Shown here piece by piece: positions 28,925 through 35,915 of a stretch of DNA of 64,000 nt; position 1 is the stretch's first letter, and each line of letters begins with the position of its first letter. The notes below the pieces were generated by a model. That model ran no database searches and had not been told where the DNA came from. It worked only from the letters and a program-made list of their open reading frames with translations. This stretch comes from Pedobacter zeae (GTDB taxonomy: Bacteria > Bacteroidota > Bacteroidia > Sphingobacteriales > Sphingobacteriaceae), in the NCBI RefSeq assembly GCF_014196715.1, contig NZ_JACIEF010000005.1:62001-126000 (forward strand). The letters are read 5' to 3'. A program made the position numbers and the translations under genes.

Positions 28925-30064
28925 CTACTGCGGTAACTGTTCAACCCTCACCAATACCGTTGGCGATGATAAGGCATCTAAAAAGGCAACAACAGCGTCT
29001 TTTTCTGCTTTGCTTAGCTTCAAACCCTTCAATAACTTGTCATTTTTAGGCAAAAGCGGATCGTTTACCTGCTCGGGCTTTACCCGCTGTACAGGCATGC
29101 CCACATTGTACATGTTCATTACGCCGTCCATATCCGGAAATAAACCATTGTGAAACCAGGGAGCGGTTTTCATCACATTTCTTAAACCTGGGGTTTTAAA
29201 CTTGCCCACATCTTCAGCCTTTTTGGTTACGTTGTATAAGCCTAAATCTTCATATTTACGGCCATAATAAGTTAAACCATCGTTGTGGAACTCGTTATCG
29301 GTAAAAAACGGACCATTGTGGCAATTGATACAACGCGCTTTGGTGCGGAACAAATGCAAACCCACCAACTGCTGATCGGTCAACGCTTTTTTATCTTTTC
29401 CTAAAAAACGATCAAAAGGCGTTCTGCGGCTTACAATACTGCGTTGAAAAGTAGCTAAACTTTCAAAAATTCTTTTATTGGTAATTTTATCCGAGCCAAA
29501 TGCGGCTGTAAAGTAAGGTTGGTAACCTTTAATCTTGCTTAGTTTTTTAGGTAAAACTTTCATGTCCTGGTGCATTTCGTTATGCGCGGCCACCGGACTA
29601 CCAGCTTGTTCTTCGAGGCTATTGGCCCGGCCATCCCAAAACAGGCGCTTGTAAAACCAAACATTTTCCAAAGATGGGGCATTGCGGATATTGGCCAAAT
29701 GATCATGACCAATGGAAACCTGGCGGCCATCGGTCCAGTGCAAATCTGGAGCATGGCAGCTCGAGCACGAAATCTGGTTAGAGCCTGATAAACGCGGATC
29801 GAAAAATAAAATCTTACCCAACTCAACCACCTTTTTAACTGAATCATTTTTTAAATCAACCGGAGCGGGAGGGAGCTCTCCCAGTTCCTGAAATACAGCT
29901 CCCGGATCTACCGTTGGTTTCGGCCACTGGCTGGTAGGTTTCGAATAAACTTTGCGCAAACTGTCAATACTCAACTCATCATCATCGTTAAAATTGGCCG
30001 ATTGAAATGAAAATAAGATTAATCCGGTGAATGCAAGAGCAAGAAGGGCAAAAAATTTATTCAT
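28925..30064 (-). CDS. Di-haem cytochrome c peroxidase (MauG/CcpA family)
   Basis: This 379-residue periplasmic protein has an N-terminal membrane-targeting signal (residues 5-20) and two c-type haem sites, C100-S-S-C103-H104 and C245-I-N-C248-H249. The F-W-D-G-R-A-N-S-L-E-E-Q-A segment near 142-154 and the R-N-A-P-S-L-x-N-V segment near 127-135 are family signatures. His305 in A-P-W-F-H-N-G is a likely distal ligand of the second haem. The family either reduces hydrogen peroxide or, in MauG- and MbnH-like members, oxidises partner proteins. It is the last gene of a four-gene unit, 3 bases after the DUF6850-type barrel gene, which favours a specialised partner over general peroxide defence; that is inference. 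Confidence 0.9.
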   Translation of the reverse strand: MNKFFALLALAFTGLILFSFQSANFNDDDELSIDSLRKVYSKPTSQWPKPTVDPGAVFQELGELPPAPVDLKNDSVKKVVELGKILFFDPRLSGSNQISCSSCHAPDLHWTDGRQVSIGHDHLANIRNAPSLENVWFYKRLFWDGRANSLEEQAGSPVAAHNEMHQDMKVLPKKLSKIKGYQPYFTAAFGSDKITNKRIFESLATFQRSIVSRRTPFDRFLGKDKKALTDQQLVGLHLFRTKARCINCHNGPFFTDNEFHNDGLTYYGRKYEDLGLYNVTKKAEDVGKFKTPGLRNVMKTAPWFHNGLFPDMDGVMNMYNVGMPVQRVKPEQVNDPLLPKNDKLLKGLKLSKAEKDAVVAFLDALSSPTVLVRVEQLPQ

Positions 30065-30067
30065 GGG

Positions 30068-31624
30068 TTAAAAATACAGGTTTAAGCTAATATTGGAAGA
30101 AAAACGGTCTTTACCGGGGGCACTTGTCAATGTTCTGCCAAAATCTTTTAGATCTTCCCTTCGCCAGTAAGTAAGGGCAACTTTGATACCAGCCTGAACT
30201 TGTTTAAACATCGGGATGCTATAATCACCGGTCAGGTTAGCGCCAAATTTTGAGGTGGTGTGGTAAGCATAGTCGTAGTAAATTACATTTCTGGTAAATA
30301 CACCTTCATTAGCCAATAATACATTAAAATCAGAATCAAGATATTGATTATATAAGCCGGTTAAACTGAAGCCCCAATTATGGTTATTTTTATTCTGGCG
30401 GTTTATACCATAACTAAGCGAGTAATTTAACTGGTTGAATCTGATATCATTTCCGGCAATACCGTCTTGCTTACGTTCTCCGTATTTACTTAAGCCTAAG
30501 CCAAAATTATGGGTGATTTGATTATTAATTAACGAGAAAAGGCCTCTGGCTGCGATAGTATTGTCTTTATACAGATAACTATTGGCCAGATAAACATGTA
30601 AATAGTTATGGCCGTTATTTCTGTAATAGGATAAATCTGCGCTAAATTTGTTATTCCTTCCTTTTTTCAACCAATACAGCCGGTACTTTTCGTTAATTAA
30701 GTTGAAACTGATGTATTTTGTAATTCCTGATGAAGTTCGATAATCAAATTTCTGCTTTTCTTTTGATGTTTGGAATGTGAAATTGAAGCTTCCCATTGTT
30801 TCATTATCAAAAGTTAAATAGGCATCGAGTCCATCTCTTGTTTGGTTATTCTGAAAGGTCCTTCTTTCATTATATTCTTCTCCCTCCCCATAACCATTTA
30901 TCAAATAATTGGTAAACTCGGGGATTACTTTGCCTTGAGAGAGGCTGTTATTTTTATAGGCAACATTTACTTTTTCTAAGCCATAACCATACCTGTAAGC
31001 CGCTCCTATGGTTAATTCTTTGGCAATATTATAACCAATTGATGCAACCAGATTTAATTGATAATCGCTAATTTCTCCGCGCGGATCGTTAGTAGAATAA
31101 TGGTTGCCTATCCTGTAATCTGCACCTAAGCCGACAGGTAAATTATCGTTTAGTAAATTTTTACTGGCTAAAGCCTTTAGGTTGTAAACTGTTCTTTGAT
31201 AATTAAGATTTTTAACTGAACCAAAATAGTATGGATTTACCAGGTTGTTTCGGGTTTGATGTGAAAATGAGGTACTATCTTCTACCGATCTGTTATATGA
31301 AAACAAACCCCATAATGTGACAGATTTGAGCTGCGAAATTCCTTCTGTACTCAAAGCTGTTGTGTTAATCTGTGTTGCATCCTGGGCTTTCATCAGATGC
31401 CCCTTCTCGAAAATTTGATTAATCTTTAAGCTGTTAAAAGTTAGAGGCATTAACTTTTTAATAAAAAAAGGACTTGTTTTTGCAAAGTCATAGGCGCTAA
31501 ATTGAGCTGAATCTGCAGAAAACCGTTTGTTATTTGTTGCTGTATTTGAAGCATCATTCACCTGAGCTGATGCCGTAAATGCAGTGCCGAAAATTAAAAT
31601 TGTATATAAAATATTATGCTTCAT
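30068..31624 (-). CDS. DUF6850-type outer membrane beta-barrel protein
   Basis: This 518-residue protein starts with a signal peptide (L-Y-T-I-L-I-F-G-T-A-F-T-A-S-A-Q, cleavage near residue 21) and continues as a string of amphipathic strands rich in Asn and Tyr, ending in S-N-I-S-L-N-L-Y-F with the C-terminal Phe expected of a barrel inserted by BamA. The ATG at 31624 begins the signal peptide; the frame is open further upstream but overlaps the next gene. It resembles the DUF6850 family found beside DUF4876 lipoproteins and TonB receptors. No enzymatic motif is visible. It lies between the lipoprotein and the di-haem protein in one transcript. Confidence 0.75.
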   Translation of the reverse strand: MKHNILYTILIFGTAFTASAQVNDASNTATNNKRFSADSAQFSAYDFAKTSPFFIKKLMPLTFNSLKINQIFEKGHLMKAQDATQINTTALSTEGISQLKSVTLWGLFSYNRSVEDSTSFSHQTRNNLVNPYYFGSVKNLNYQRTVYNLKALASKNLLNDNLPVGLGADYRIGNHYSTNDPRGEISDYQLNLVASIGYNIAKELTIGAAYRYGYGLEKVNVAYKNNSLSQGKVIPEFTNYLINGYGEGEEYNERRTFQNNQTRDGLDAYLTFDNETMGSFNFTFQTSKEKQKFDYRTSSGITKYISFNLINEKYRLYWLKKGRNNKFSADLSYYRNNGHNYLHVYLANSYLYKDNTIAARGLFSLINNQITHNFGLGLSKYGERKQDGIAGNDIRFNQLNYSLSYGINRQNKNNHNWGFSLTGLYNQYLDSDFNVLLANEGVFTRNVIYYDYAYHTTSKFGANLTGDYSIPMFKQVQAGIKVALTYWRREDLKDFGRTLTSAPGKDRFSSNISLNLYF

Positions 31625-31658
31625 TTTTATGATGTGAAGTATTTTCGCCATGTAATAA

Positions 31659-32993
31659 TTATTTAAACCCCCTTGGATTGGCAAGTGGCAGGTAGTCAAA
31701 ATCTTCGGCTGAGTTATTGGTATCTTTTAAAATTATCCTTCCATTTACGATAGCTTCCGTTTTTCTGATTACTGATTGCGAAGAATATATCCCGTTGGGA
31801 ACATAGGTGTATAAGGCATCCAGGCTTGCAACAAGCTTTTTAGGTACTCGTGATGTCGCTACGTTGGTTTGAGTCTCCACCGCATCAATAATGAAAGAGC
31901 GTGGAATCTGATAATATTTATCAGCACTTGAACTTGGTGGAGCAATGGTTGGATATGGATATTTAGGTAAATCTTTGATAGGCGTTTTGCCATTATTTTT
32001 AAAAATTACATAGCCCATTCTGCCGCTGGTTTCTAAAATCAGATCAGTTCCATTGTAAGATAAGACGTCAATATTGGGTACTAAGGGGTTGTCTATATCG
32101 GAAGCGAGAGGGCGGGGTAGGAAAGGGGCATAATAGGCTTCAAAATCTGCGCCACTCAAATCAATTGTTAAAGATGGGTCGCGTGCAGTAATTACTTTCC
32201 CATCAGAACCGGTAAAGGGTGCTTTATGGTTTACGGCAGTTTGCGCCAATACAATACTTTTACCCGGTAACACCGGATATTGCTTTCCGGTTCCAGGGAT
32301 CATCAATAACGCCCTCATATAAACATAATCGTTATTGGCATCAATATCCGAAGGCATTCCCTGAGCTTTACTCCAATCATACTGGCTGTTCGTTTGTCTG
32401 TAAATGTTCACAGCAGTAAAGTTTTGGATGCCTAAAGCCTCGCCAATGTACAAACTATCGGCATACAATACAGAATCTGAGTTGTTGTAAATCTCAATAA
32501 ACTGATCTCTAAAACTAGCACCTGTTGTGGTATTAGACCCTGCAAAATAGATTTGCTTAATTACCCATGGGCCAGTAGGGCCAGCAATAAGTTTTAAATT
32601 AAGACTCTGGCCATTTTCAATAGTGATGATTCTTGCTTTTTCTGATGCATTAAAGACCACATTTTTAGTCACGCTTTCTCCGGTAAGTGCAGAATATTCA
32701 GCGGCTGATATTTCTACCGAAGCAGAAATATCATAGCTTCCTGGTGAGATAGAATCCAGCGAAAAAGTACCATCATCTTTAGCAGTATAAATGTTTTCCT
32801 TATTATTCTTGTTGTTCTTAAATGTAAGTTTAACTTTTGCAATGGGTAAAATCTTTGCAAGATCAGCAGAAGCATATGATGCGATAACTTTGAATTGTAC
32901 CGGATGAATTTCTGGTGTATCCCCCTGGTATTTTTTGCAAGCAGTGAATAGCAGCACAATTGCAGTTACTACAAATATTATTTTTTTCATCAT
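31659..32993 (-). CDS. DUF4876-type surface lipoprotein
   Basis: This 444-residue protein has a lipoprotein signal with lipobox L-F-T-A-C (lipidated Cys near residue 19) followed by K-K-Y. Residues about 40-130 look like a carboxypeptidase-regulatory-like or Ig-like beta domain (G-T-F-S-L-D-S-I-S-P-G-S-Y), and the segment F-I-E-I-Y-N-N-S-D-S-V-L-Y-A near 170 resembles a lamin-tail-like fold. The C-terminal 250 residues fit DUF4876. The ATG pair at 32993 and 32990 follows the TonB receptor stop by 1 base, so the genes are coupled. Such lipoproteins beside TonB receptors often capture ligand at the cell surface; the ligand here is unknown. Confidence 0.78.
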   Translation of the reverse strand: MMKKIIFVVTAIVLLFTACKKYQGDTPEIHPVQFKVIASYASADLAKILPIAKVKLTFKNNKNNKENIYTAKDDGTFSLDSISPGSYDISASVEISAAEYSALTGESVTKNVVFNASEKARIITIENGQSLNLKLIAGPTGPWVIKQIYFAGSNTTTGASFRDQFIEIYNNSDSVLYADSLYIGEALGIQNFTAVNIYRQTNSQYDWSKAQGMPSDIDANNDYVYMRALLMIPGTGKQYPVLPGKSIVLAQTAVNHKAPFTGSDGKVITARDPSLTIDLSGADFEAYYAPFLPRPLASDIDNPLVPNIDVLSYNGTDLILETSGRMGYVIFKNNGKTPIKDLPKYPYPTIAPPSSSADKYYQIPRSFIIDAVETQTNVATSRVPKKLVASLDALYTYVPNGIYSSQSVIRKTEAIVNGRIILKDTNNSAEDFDYLPLANPRGFK

Positions 32994-32994
32994 C

Positions 32995-35778
32995 TTATAG
33001 TTTAATCGATAATTCGGCACCAAATGTTGGGCTGGTATTTGGATATTTATACGTACCCGCAGGGGTAACATAATAAGGCTGGTAATTAAAAACATTGTAT
33101 ACATTAAAAGCGAATTTGAAACGCTTCTTAATCTCCTTTGCAATGCTCATGTGGTAATTTGAGAATATGCGGGGAAGATTTTCTTCGGCCTGTTGTTCTG
33201 GGCTTTTGTATAAATGACCATAGGAAGTATTATTCTTATCGAAATTAGTAATAGCTATATATTGATTAGTGCTTGTATAATAACCCAGCGGAATTCTTGA
33301 ACTTTCCGGACTGATAATTTTATCTAATAATTGGAATTCTGCAATAAAAGAAACTACAAGACTTAGCTTAGGGATATGGGTTACACTGGTAAGTCTTCCT
33401 GTACTGAAATATGCTCTGGTATTTTTTGGTTCATAAACACCAATGTACGCGTAGTTTGGGTCTGTAGGAACAGTGTTTGGGATTTCGTTGCTCAATGAAT
33501 TATAGCGCGAGCGCGATTTAGTTTTGAAAAGCCCGCCACTAATGTTAAATGAAGTTTTGATCTGTTTAATCTCTGGGGTGTTTAAGATCAGCTCAAAGCC
33601 TTGGTTATCAGATAAAAGGTCATTTTTAAATGCTGAATAATTAATGGCGTAAGCTTTGGTACCTGTTTGGTTTATTGTTGGTTTTGCACCGGGATTGATA
33701 GTTGCAGTGTAAGTGGGCAGAAAAATGCTCTGTAAATTTTGAACGGTAGATATCCCATCCCGCGATTTTTTGTTAAAAGCAGTTAAAGAAAGATTAAATT
33801 TATCAATTTTTAATTGTGCAGATAATTCGATGCTTTCGCTCTTTGATGGTTTTAAACCTGTGCTAGTAGGTTCGTAACGCTCTACATAAACCAGATAAGT
33901 ACTTTCATTTACCTTACCATTATAGGCATTTAACAATGGCACTTCAAAAAACGTTGGCCCTGGGAAACGTTGTGCCAGGCCTGGCGATTTATATGATAAA
34001 CCATAAGCCACGCCAAACCTAAGGTTTTTATTTGCTTCATAATTGATATTTGTTCTGGGTGATATTGAAGTATACCCATTTTGTATATCAGATCTTATAC
34101 CGGCACGAATATTCAAGGGTCTACCCATTACAGTTGCGGTAAAGAGGTCTTCAACATAAAAACCAAGGTCTTTTTGGGCAAGTGCCAACCTGAAGTCGTA
34201 ATAACGTTCTGAACTTTTTGTGCCCAAAGAAGTACTTGCAATTCTTGTTGTAGCCCTCGGCTCGTTCGGATCAATGGTTTGGCCCAACCCTTTGTTTATG
34301 CTATAGCTAAAGCTGGTACCAAAAGACAGGTTGTGCACTAAATTTCCTGTTGCAAACCCTCCCGTGAAATCTAAATTAGCTGATGCGGTAATCGGACGGC
34401 CATCTATCAATGATTTTGCAGTGTAAACTCCAGAATCATAATATCCTTCATGTATTCCTGTAGTAGTTGCTGTACTATATAATACATAAGCATCATTTAC
34501 TAATTCTTCCTTGTAACTAACCTGGTGTCCTTCTGCATATCTTAAATTTAGACCAACATTTTTTAGGAAGCCGTTGTTGAAACGATAATTGCTTCTGTTT
34601 GCAATGCTAAAATTCCAGCTGTCAAATTTCGTTCTTGTACTCTTTTCATCGTCCGGGTCAAATTTGATTCCATCTAGATTCCGGCCATAATCTAAACTAA
34701 AAGTATTCTTTAGCTGTTTACTTTTTCCAAAAGAATTTGTCCACATGGCATTGGTGGTTAGCCTTTTGTAAGCTTTTAATTTGTCGCGGTTGTCCTGGAA
34801 AGAATTAACATAATTAATTCCAATATTTACAGCTCCATATTTTGGACTGATTTCAAAGCCTTTTGAAAAACCATAAGATGTAGCATTATCTCTTAATTGC
34901 ATACGTACGTAAGCAGGAGACTTACCTGCCTGACGTTCAATAACAACAGCACCATCTGTTAAATCGCCATATTTTACCGGGGCCACACCTGGAATAACCT
35001 CAATACTTTCAATATTATCAGCGGGGATTTGGCGCAGGTCTGTTCCTCCAAAAGTATAATCTCCGGTGTAGCCTGTTCTGTCCTGCTCGCCAGTTCCTCT
35101 TATTCCGTATGATCCGCTTTTTACAAATGACGAACCTACCCCGCCTGCTCTGCCAGCATTAAAACTTTGCATGTTGGCATTATTACTAATGGTGTTTCCG
35201 TCCATAATAATGGCAATACCAAATGCATTATTTAACTCGAAAGCCCCTTTTCCATCAGTAGTGGGGGCATAAGCAGCCCTTAGGTTAATATTCTGTACGT
35301 TTTGTAAGGATGGCGGCTGGATTTTTCTATTCGGTATCTGATTCAATAGATCATTTACACTCAAGGCAGGCGTTTGCTCAATTAAATCTCTGGTAATGAT
35401 TAATGAAGAGTTGGTTTGGCCGGTATAATTCCGCTTGGCATTGATCTCGATGTTTTCCAAGCTTAAGTCCAAAACTTTTAAGGTGATATTACCGAGATTA
35501 GTTTCGCCAGCTTTAATGGTTACGGGTAAGTTTAACTTCTGATAACCGATATAGGAAAATTCGAGGGTCAGTATATTATTCGTTTCAGAGCCATTAATCC
35601 TGAATAAACCATTTTTGTCTGTGATGGCATATTGATTGGTTTCTACAATTTTGATATTAACAAGTTCTAAAGGCTTGTCCTGTGGATCGGTTACTTTTCC
35701 GACCACAACATTTCTAATTTGCGCTATCGCAGTGAAGCAAATAAAAAAGAATAAGGCGAATGTGTAAAGTTTTTTCAA
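32995..35778 (-). CDS. TonB-dependent receptor with carboxypeptidase-like N-terminal domain
   Basis: This 927-residue outer-membrane receptor has a signal peptide (A-L-F-F-F-I-C-F-T-A-I-A-Q), a carboxypeptidase-like regulatory domain at about residues 22-110 (V-V-G-K-V-T-D-P-Q-D-K-P-L), a plug domain at about 125-285 with I-E-V-I-P-G-V-A-P-V-K-Y-G, and a 22-strand barrel ending G-A-E-L-S-I-K-L. It is not a SusC: there is no SusD partner. The start is a TTG at 35778; an in-frame stop lies just upstream, and no ATG fits the signal peptide. An inverted repeat at 35840-35854 in the promoter region suggests control by a metalloregulator. Energised transport of a siderophore, haem or metal complex is the likely role. 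Confidence 0.88.
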   Translation of the reverse strand: MKKLYTFALFFFICFTAIAQIRNVVVGKVTDPQDKPLELVNIKIVETNQYAITDKNGLFRINGSETNNILTLEFSYIGYQKLNLPVTIKAGETNLGNITLKVLDLSLENIEINAKRNYTGQTNSSLIITRDLIEQTPALSVNDLLNQIPNRKIQPPSLQNVQNINLRAAYAPTTDGKGAFELNNAFGIAIIMDGNTISNNANMQSFNAGRAGGVGSSFVKSGSYGIRGTGEQDRTGYTGDYTFGGTDLRQIPADNIESIEVIPGVAPVKYGDLTDGAVVIERQAGKSPAYVRMQLRDNATSYGFSKGFEISPKYGAVNIGINYVNSFQDNRDKLKAYKRLTTNAMWTNSFGKSKQLKNTFSLDYGRNLDGIKFDPDDEKSTRTKFDSWNFSIANRSNYRFNNGFLKNVGLNLRYAEGHQVSYKEELVNDAYVLYSTATTTGIHEGYYDSGVYTAKSLIDGRPITASANLDFTGGFATGNLVHNLSFGTSFSYSINKGLGQTIDPNEPRATTRIASTSLGTKSSERYYDFRLALAQKDLGFYVEDLFTATVMGRPLNIRAGIRSDIQNGYTSISPRTNINYEANKNLRFGVAYGLSYKSPGLAQRFPGPTFFEVPLLNAYNGKVNESTYLVYVERYEPTSTGLKPSKSESIELSAQLKIDKFNLSLTAFNKKSRDGISTVQNLQSIFLPTYTATINPGAKPTINQTGTKAYAINYSAFKNDLLSDNQGFELILNTPEIKQIKTSFNISGGLFKTKSRSRYNSLSNEIPNTVPTDPNYAYIGVYEPKNTRAYFSTGRLTSVTHIPKLSLVVSFIAEFQLLDKIISPESSRIPLGYYTSTNQYIAITNFDKNNTSYGHLYKSPEQQAEENLPRIFSNYHMSIAKEIKKRFKFAFNVYNVFNYQPYYVTPAGTYKYPNTSPTFGAELSIKL

Positions 35779-35839
35779 TTTAGACTAAATCTTAATAATG
35801 ATGCAAATGTGAGAATTCCACATTAACTATGCAAATTAT

Positions 35840-35854
35840 TTAGAACGATTCTAA
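35840..35854. promoter_or_regulatory. Operator-like inverted repeat upstream of TonB receptor unit
   Basis: TTAGAA-CGA-TTCTAA is a perfect 6-base inverted repeat with 3-base spacer, in an AT-rich context that extends the dyad weakly. It is 61 bases upstream of the receptor start. The form is similar to Fur- or DtxR-type boxes, so iron or manganese control is an inference. Confidence 0.5.
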
Positions 35855-35915
35855 TTAATAATACAGGTATTTAATTAACACAGGCAGCCCAACGAGCATT
35901 TTAGAAGTGTGTCAG

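Follow-up and report, generated by a model that had tools for sequence, protein, structure and literature searches.

Organization of the operon

The 64,000-nt stretch of the Pedobacter zeae genome analysed here (contig NZ_JACIEF010000005.1, positions 62,001 to 126,000; hereafter the window, to whose numbering all coordinates refer) harbors an operon of four open reading frames (ORFs) on the minus strand at 35778-28925, which encode, in this order, a TonB-dependent outer-membrane receptor, a DUF4876 lipoprotein, a DUF6850 protein and a di-haem protein of the CCP_MauG family. The intergenic gaps are 1, 34 and 3 bases, and the ORF list and Pfam both bear out the gene content, order and spacing given in an initial annotation of this DNA. 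A perfect palindromic operator, the dyad TTAGAA-CGA-TTCTAA (35840-35854, no strand), is present 61 bp before the start codon of the receptor.

The receptor (32995-35778, minus strand; TTG start) has a CarboxypepD_reg-like N-terminal domain together with Plug (Pfam E-value 1.3e-7) and TonB barrel (1.2e-14) matches. Its score of 26.4 bits against the NCBIfam SusC model falls below the cut-off (368.25), and Pfam finds no SusD family match among the four products of the operon. No solved TonB receptor related to it by sequence was found, the sole match being an antibody chain. The DUF4876 protein (31659-32993, minus strand; 7.6e-33) is a lipoprotein with Cys19, numbered from the ATG start, as its lipoprotein cysteine. 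Its N-terminal domain is transthyretin-like and its C-terminal part is related to the structure of BT_1938 (PDB identifier 4q1z; 1.4e-23 in a sequence search of solved structures), which is also the fold match of its predicted structure (pLDDT 87.9; Z 29.3). The fold search additionally gives the lamin A/C tail domain (Z 8.0 over 112 residues), but this likeness of the model may just reflect a common arrangement and indicates no ligand. In P. soli, the closest named relative, the DUF4876 protein is 95% identical in the best aligned segment. The DUF6850 protein (30068-31624, minus strand; 2.8e-75) is predicted to form an outer-membrane β-barrel of about 18 long strands (pLDDT 90.4), and since its fold search returns generic outer-membrane barrels only (for example, CymA with a Z of 18.9 and an RMSD of 5.0 over 299), its cargo cannot be read from the fold. 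That a receptor with a surface lipoprotein points to ligand capture, as proposed initially, appears reasonable.

The di-haem protein is of the MauG/MbnH type

The last gene (28925-30064, minus strand) encodes a 379-aa protein with a CCP_MauG domain (1.8e-51), a hydrophobic N-terminus that we take as an export signal, and two CxxCH haem motifs, Cys100-His104 (29753-29767) and Cys245-His249 (29318-29332), both on the minus strand. It scores below the cut-offs of the models for MauG (TIGR03791; 219.3 bits, cut-off 443.85) and MbnH (TIGR04039; 209.8 bits, cut-off 362.85). Among its solved relatives peroxidases lead (PDB identifier 1iqc; 5e-47), followed by MbnH (6e1c; 2e-34) and MauG (about 1e-22). 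However, at the distal position of the second haem, where bacterial di-haem cytochrome c peroxidases have a Met at the high-potential haem (6qkn and 6fu3 in our alignment), the protein has Tyr319 (29108-29110, minus strand), which aligns with the Tyr of MbnH (6e1c) and which we take to be at the position of the MauG axial ligand Tyr294. Likewise, Trp143 (29636-29638, minus strand; placed by alignment) presumably occupies the position of MauG Trp93, between the haems. The alignment thus supports a protein of the MauG/MbnH type rather than of the peroxidase type, in line with the likeness to MbnH drawn in the initial annotation, with Tyr replacing the peroxidase Met.

In a tree of CCP_MauG proteins, the di-haem protein and its relatives form a clade of 78 rows apart from 23 other CCP_MauG proteins with 100/100 support; the tree is midpoint-rooted, has long branches among the outsiders and includes no characterised MbnH. 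The outsiders include both MbnP-neighbouring paralogues of the window's genome, which are coded in a different operon. A Tyr is present at the Tyr319 position in all 101 aligned proteins, and since the outsiders carry it too, it is a mark of the MauG/MbnH type as a whole rather than of this clade. Within the clade, Tyr319, Trp143 and Glu163 are conserved in 78/78, Gln153 in 77/78 and Pro157 in 75/78, a Trp/Gln/Pro/Glu/Tyr constellation that we regard as equivalent to the residues of MauG. The clade itself is marked by Trp47 (78 of 78), Trp110 (70), His120 (61), His237 (77) and Trp303 (73), positions at which the 23 outsiders mostly differ. A partial di-haem match (G347:C2:61233-61892), 86% identical and interrupted by an in-frame TAG, is found in a genome without a DUF4876 match and is apparently a decaying copy.

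Conservation of the module across Bacteroidota

Loci of relatives were collected in two samples, and their genes were labelled with profiles built from the window's own proteins. The first sample comprises 80 loci, 10 of which represent every DUF4876 match outside the genus among the 295 genomes of a class-wide draw, and 70 of which come from the 76 places with an above-cut-off DUF6850 match in 198 relatives within the genus (the six places left out are mostly partial or second copies). The second sample comprises the 79 top-ranking of 491 loci confirmed by similarity to the window's DUF4876 protein, and is biased to relatives. Retaining full-length trios of receptor, DUF4876 and DUF6850 genes from both samples, and removing identical DUF4876 rows, leaves 129 modules.

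The trio is contiguous and in the same order in 79/80 loci of the first sample, the order in the remaining locus (L048) being altered by extra DUF4876 genes, and it is present in all 79 loci of the second, including one in which the receptor is cut by the contig end (L159) and one in which it is split into two ORFs (L201). A di-haem gene lies directly downstream of the trio, as in the window, in 55/80 and 68/79 loci, respectively; in the second sample, seven further loci, from Sphingobacterium and Parapedobacter, have it divergent beside the receptor and four have none. The co-occurrence of the four families suggested for checking by the initial annotation thus reveals one conserved functional unit, with the trio in 79/79 and an adjacent di-haem gene in 75/79 loci. 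Among the 129 non-redundant modules, the enzyme is encoded downstream in 96 and elsewhere nearby in 7, and 26 are without it. The gap to the di-haem gene has a median of 3 bp and is at most 30 bp in 107 of 124 cases (both samples pooled, repeats included). The taxa carrying the module span Sphingobacteriaceae, Chitinophagaceae, Cyclobacteriaceae and Hymenobacteraceae.

At the level of genomes, 59 of the 198 relatives have both a DUF4876 protein and a member of the di-haem clade, 7 have DUF4876 only, 11 have the clade only and 121 have neither (Fisher 6e-31, kinship ignored). In the wider class, DUF4876 is present in 8/295 genomes and the di-haem clade in 7/295, with 4 genomes common to both; membership was called at E <= 1e-90, and the next matches begin at 3e-60.

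Of 19 searched genomes with a di-haem-less trio, 12 carry a clade member elsewhere and 7 do not; a twentieth, G307, carries the enzyme in its trio. The seven comprise G073, G032 and G226 from other families of the class, and four from the genus Pedobacter (G399, G306, G360 and G326) in which the trio adjoins a HEAT-type protein. Di-haem-less trios can be read either as a loss of need for the enzyme or as action in trans by a distant copy. Since 26/129 modules are without the gene, the enzyme is not essential to the trio, and a strict dependence of the trio on it is rejected.

A protein of about 730-770 aa is encoded beside several di-haem-less trios, downstream in L046, L053 and L057-L060 and upstream in L054-L056; three of these were read and the others assigned by size. 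Their HG and C motifs recall gingipain-type peptidases by eye, but Pfam backs only HEAT_2 in the one tested (L053), and the gingipain-like identity is not retained. In L201, a relative of this protein adjoins a trio that has the di-haem gene.

The di-haem clade outside the trio

We fetched 30 loci for a subset of the di-haem copies that lie outside the trio. Fourteen of these (L276, L277, L279, L282, L283, L287-L291 and L293-L296) are operons in which the di-haem gene follows genes for an ECF sigma factor, FecR, SusC, SusD and a lipoprotein, one of them being cut at a contig end; their genes were labelled by similarity to L283 and L276, with Pfam run on a few. The lipoprotein has no Pfam match in the three tested. 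Alignment of the two types of partner lipoprotein (four rows) pairs only their signal peptides, and homology between them is rejected. In the tree, trio copies that have their own sigma-FecR gene pair share one clade of 100/100 support with the copies from SusC/SusD operons, and orphan di-haem genes nest among trio copies at several places.

Nine loci (L280, L281, L284-L286, L292 and L298-L300) have a MATE gene directly before an orphan di-haem gene, at a site that, by gene sizes, looks the same as the one harboring a MATE gene, the trio and the di-haem gene in other Pedobacter genomes. One report names a MATE gene as the most iron-induced gene of P. gingivalis (PMC10434189). In three more loci (L271-L273), the di-haem gene is followed by the same three genes as the full operon in L061 and L062, and a copy of the dyad with 1-2 mismatches starts 67-76 bp before the di-haem start; from their sequence, these look as if the trio had been excised between box and enzyme. 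The nine MATE-linked orphans and L271-L273 lead us to reject the view that the enzyme strictly depends on the trio. The remaining four of the 30 loci are unplaced.

The free-standing copies would suit plain defence, in which a periplasmic peroxidase clears peroxide during iron import and is carried along by co-regulation. The best-scoring solved relatives are indeed peroxidases (1iqc, 5e-47), and a His at what we take to be the position of the peroxidase distal His71 is present in 61/78 clade members. However, a Tyr replaces the peroxidase Met in 78/78, and a Tyr ligand goes with poor peroxidase activity in MauG and MbnH; moreover, the repeated linkage of the gene, in last position, to two different TonB operons exceeds what a general scavenger would need. 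We therefore consider defence alone an unlikely role.

The operator and a candidate iron regulon

The dyad (TTAGAACGATTCTAA, 35840-35854) is the sole perfect match within the window, and matches with up to two mismatches are not enriched there (4 found vs 7.45 expected), so that the single site proves nothing alone. By contrast, 51/129 modules have the dyad in the 300 bp before the receptor when one mismatch is allowed, vs 11/1290 dinucleotide shuffles (0.85%), and this conservation argues that it is a real element; by presence of the enzyme, these cases divide into 45/103 modules with a di-haem gene and 6/26 without.

The genome as a whole has 26 sites with at most one mismatch. Apart from the operon's own, 17/25 fall in intergenic DNA no more than 250 bp 5' of an ORF, compared to 3/20 control sites (p 7e-4), the controls being 20 examined out of 58 matches to the reversed pattern. 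Perfect copies of the dyad stand at three more places, before nuoB, the sdhC cytochrome b558 gene and acnB, and sites with one mismatch precede gltB, mqo, hemA and genes for a TonB siderophore receptor, a cytochrome c, FecR, a DUF4920 protein and an aldehyde-dehydrogenase-type iron-sulfur subunit (whose score falls short of the cut-off of its best model). Others among the 17 sites precede genes with no obvious link to iron, namely those for a gluconate 2-dehydrogenase subunit 3 family protein, a thioredoxin-reductase-like flavoprotein, a short-chain dehydrogenase, a response regulator beside a kinase and a FUSC-like transporter (both by eye), and a small unknown protein. Given its further copies before nuoB, sdhC, acnB, hemA and a siderophore receptor gene, the dyad is best read as an iron box, with a target set that resembles an iron response. 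The metal-type operator of the initial annotation, whose dyad is perfect and recurs in the 51 modules above, can thereby be specified further. The box sites (L221-L239, L319-L321) form a candidate iron regulon for Pedobacter. The DUF4920 gene of this genome (L319:3103-3567) carries the box, and in L168, L174, L184, L185 and L202 the gene next downstream of the di-haem gene is of the DUF4920 type.

Published expression data place related loci under iron control. The P. gingivalis locus PG1019-22 (a DUF4876 protein, a TonB receptor and hypotheticals) is 20.8-214.5-fold up upon iron depletion, and the B. thetaiotaomicron locus BT3625-33 (DUF4876 proteins and a TonB receptor) is 36.7-128-fold up, while BT1933-39, likewise with DUF4876 and a TonB receptor, is merely 3.5-7.4-fold up (PMC10434189). 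The same report compares PG1019-21, BT_1938-9 and P. intermedia PIN17_RS07775-90 as one outer membrane transport system, and in it the succinate dehydrogenase/fumarate reductase genes go down, which agrees with the box before sdhC (PMC10434189). In P. gingivalis, a DUF4876 gene is also listed with the genes that respond most strongly to hemin (PMC10470040).

The operon might instead import another metal (copper, manganese or zinc) or a metal-free nutrient, the box being that of a different metalloregulator. Metal regulators of the Fur and DtxR families have similar operators, and genes of both families are present in the genome (two FUR-family genes and two DtxR-type genes over the cut-off). 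However, many of the genes behind the box are for iron-sulfur proteins, haem or iron uptake, related operons are reported to respond to iron (PMC10434189), and the copper-type MbnP-MbnH genes are located elsewhere in the genome, which together make such a cargo very improbable. For copper in particular, the analogy to MbnP-MbnH is lowered because genes of that type lie elsewhere and many box targets are iron genes.

Lipoprotein and barrel residues as substrates

The initial annotation proposed that the enzyme oxidises a residue of the lipoprotein or the barrel. Among the 103 di-haem-positive modules, neither DUF4876 nor DUF6850 has an invariant Trp, and a single conserved Trp as the substrate is rejected on this basis. 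W207 of DUF4876 is the best candidate, but 12/103 positive modules lack it and 14/26 negative ones have it. Tyr158 of DUF6850 (long-ORF numbering) is found in 88% of modules with the enzyme vs 31% without, a contrast that could come from phylogeny alone. Given also that the clade occurs in SusC/SusD operons and as lone copies, the proposal is not supported in that form, and a single fixed residue of DUF4876 or DUF6850 is improbable as the target.

A broader, MbnH-like maturation, in which the enzyme would make a metal or ligand site by oxidising a Trp or Tyr in the adjacent lipoprotein, barrel or receptor, is kept as an alternative because an invariant Trp is present in the lipoprotein whose gene precedes that of the enzyme in SusC/SusD operons (LP204 in 12/12, LP492 in 2/2). 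MbnH is among the solved relatives of the enzyme (6e1c, 2e-34) and has the Tyr in common, a lipoprotein gene adjoins the enzyme gene in both the trio and the SusC/SusD contexts, W207 is invariant among 44 aligned closer relatives, and near-invariant Tyr residues are available (DUF4876 Y137, long-ORF numbering, in 103/103; DUF6850 Y172 in 97%). Against this, the same Tyr residues are similarly conserved without the enzyme (100% and 92%), W207 shows the losses and retentions given above, with three of the negative modules that bear it lying in genomes in which no clade member was found (G073, G399 and G306), the two lipoprotein types align over the signal peptide only, and orphan di-haem copies exist. 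On balance, maturation of this kind appears unlikely.

A proposed oxidant enzyme of a probable iron-uptake module

We favour, with about even confidence, the hypothesis that the operon encodes a TonB uptake module under iron control, and that many environmental Bacteroidota have joined to this module a periplasmic oxidant enzyme of the MauG type. We infer that an iron-sensing repressor at the dyad would shut the operon when iron is plentiful. To judge from their families and regulation, the DUF4876 lipoprotein and the receptor would bind and take up a ligand that contains iron, the DUF6850 barrel being a putative companion channel. MauG and MbnH form a high-valent di-haem state, and the conserved residues suggest that the di-haem protein, exported to the periplasm, would reach such a state with peroxide or oxygen. 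Its oxidising power would plausibly be spent on something common to several TonB uptake systems, either the imported ligand or an uptake protein, perhaps in order to free or to hold iron.

Several observations weigh against this hypothesis. The di-haem gene is missing from 26/129 modules, and the co-occurrence statistic ignores kinship. The box is far from universal, with at least two mismatches in 78/129 modules, some of which perhaps have a promoter before sigma-FecR genes instead. Its count in the genome shows no enrichment, since the reversed control pattern is commoner (58 vs 26). Outside the trio, the nine MATE-linked orphan genes are without the box (at least three mismatches), and a box with at most one mismatch precedes the sigma gene in only 4 of 13 testable SusC/SusD operons. 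As both types of regulator are present, the repressor cannot be named as Fur or DtxR.

More tentatively, and with considerable doubt, the separate MauG-type family may be a general tool of TonB iron uptake that serves at least two unrelated receptor types, namely DUF4876/DUF6850 and SusC/SusD with FecI-FecR, and that acts by long-range oxidation, either maturing a Trp or Tyr of a lipoprotein or stripping iron from the ligand. The best-known tasks of MauG-type enzymes are the formation of the methylamine dehydrogenase cofactor and of kynurenine in the copper protein MbnP. A general tool of this kind would, to our knowledge, be the first case in which iron acquisition makes use of MauG-type chemistry. 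A distinct clade that goes with iron-boxed TonB operons in many environmental Bacteroidota would extend the chemistry in this direction, and would give a function to DUF4876 and DUF6850, both Pfam families of unknown function.

Relation to known systems

The Bacteroidales iron-induced loci resemble this operon in having DUF4876 next to a TonB receptor (4q1z is BT_1938), and, going by the gene order seen in other loci, they would also hold a DUF6850 gene. They differ in that no di-haem protein is listed for them: the entry for BT3625-33 names PepSY and ABC genes, and that for BT1933-39 a HEAT-repeat protein (PMC10434189). This raises the question of why the partner is PepSY or HEAT in the loci so reported and a di-haem protein here. 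We found no mention of DUF6850 in the literature, whereas DUF4876 is mentioned in three papers, and no DUF4876/TonB module with a di-haem partner is reported among the literature matches listed. The statement of the initial annotation that no described system has this set therefore holds for the di-haem partner, within those matches, but not for the DUF4876-receptor loci, whose induction by iron depletion is already on record in other Bacteroidota.

Another operon, BT2473-2482, presumably includes a di-haem oxidoreductase. It is iron-induced and has a porin, a thiol oxidoreductase, a peptidase M75 and CcsA (PMC10434189); as an iron-regulated operon with a porin it is like the present one, and its families, as annotated, differ. 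SusC/SusD systems with an ECF sigma factor and FecR share the di-haem clade, which ends 14 such operons, but the receptor and the lack of a SusD match described above set this operon apart from them.

The likeness to MauG lies in the conserved Trp/Gln/Pro/Glu/Tyr constellation, but no methylamine dehydrogenase is seen by eye among the flanking ORFs, which are MurI-like and PurF-like, also by eye. As in MbnP-MbnH (TIGR04039, PF20243), a CCP_MauG enzyme with a Tyr at the same place is coded beside a lipoprotein; however, none of the four products is an MbnP (PF20243), and the enzyme falls in a separate clade (100/100). Two tandem MbnP-MbnH-type pairs are present elsewhere in the window's genome (L240:2032-7943, G000:C3; Pfam run on one pair), where they adjoin genes for an outer-membrane-like protein and a SCO1-like protein (both by eye) in a locus of copper type.

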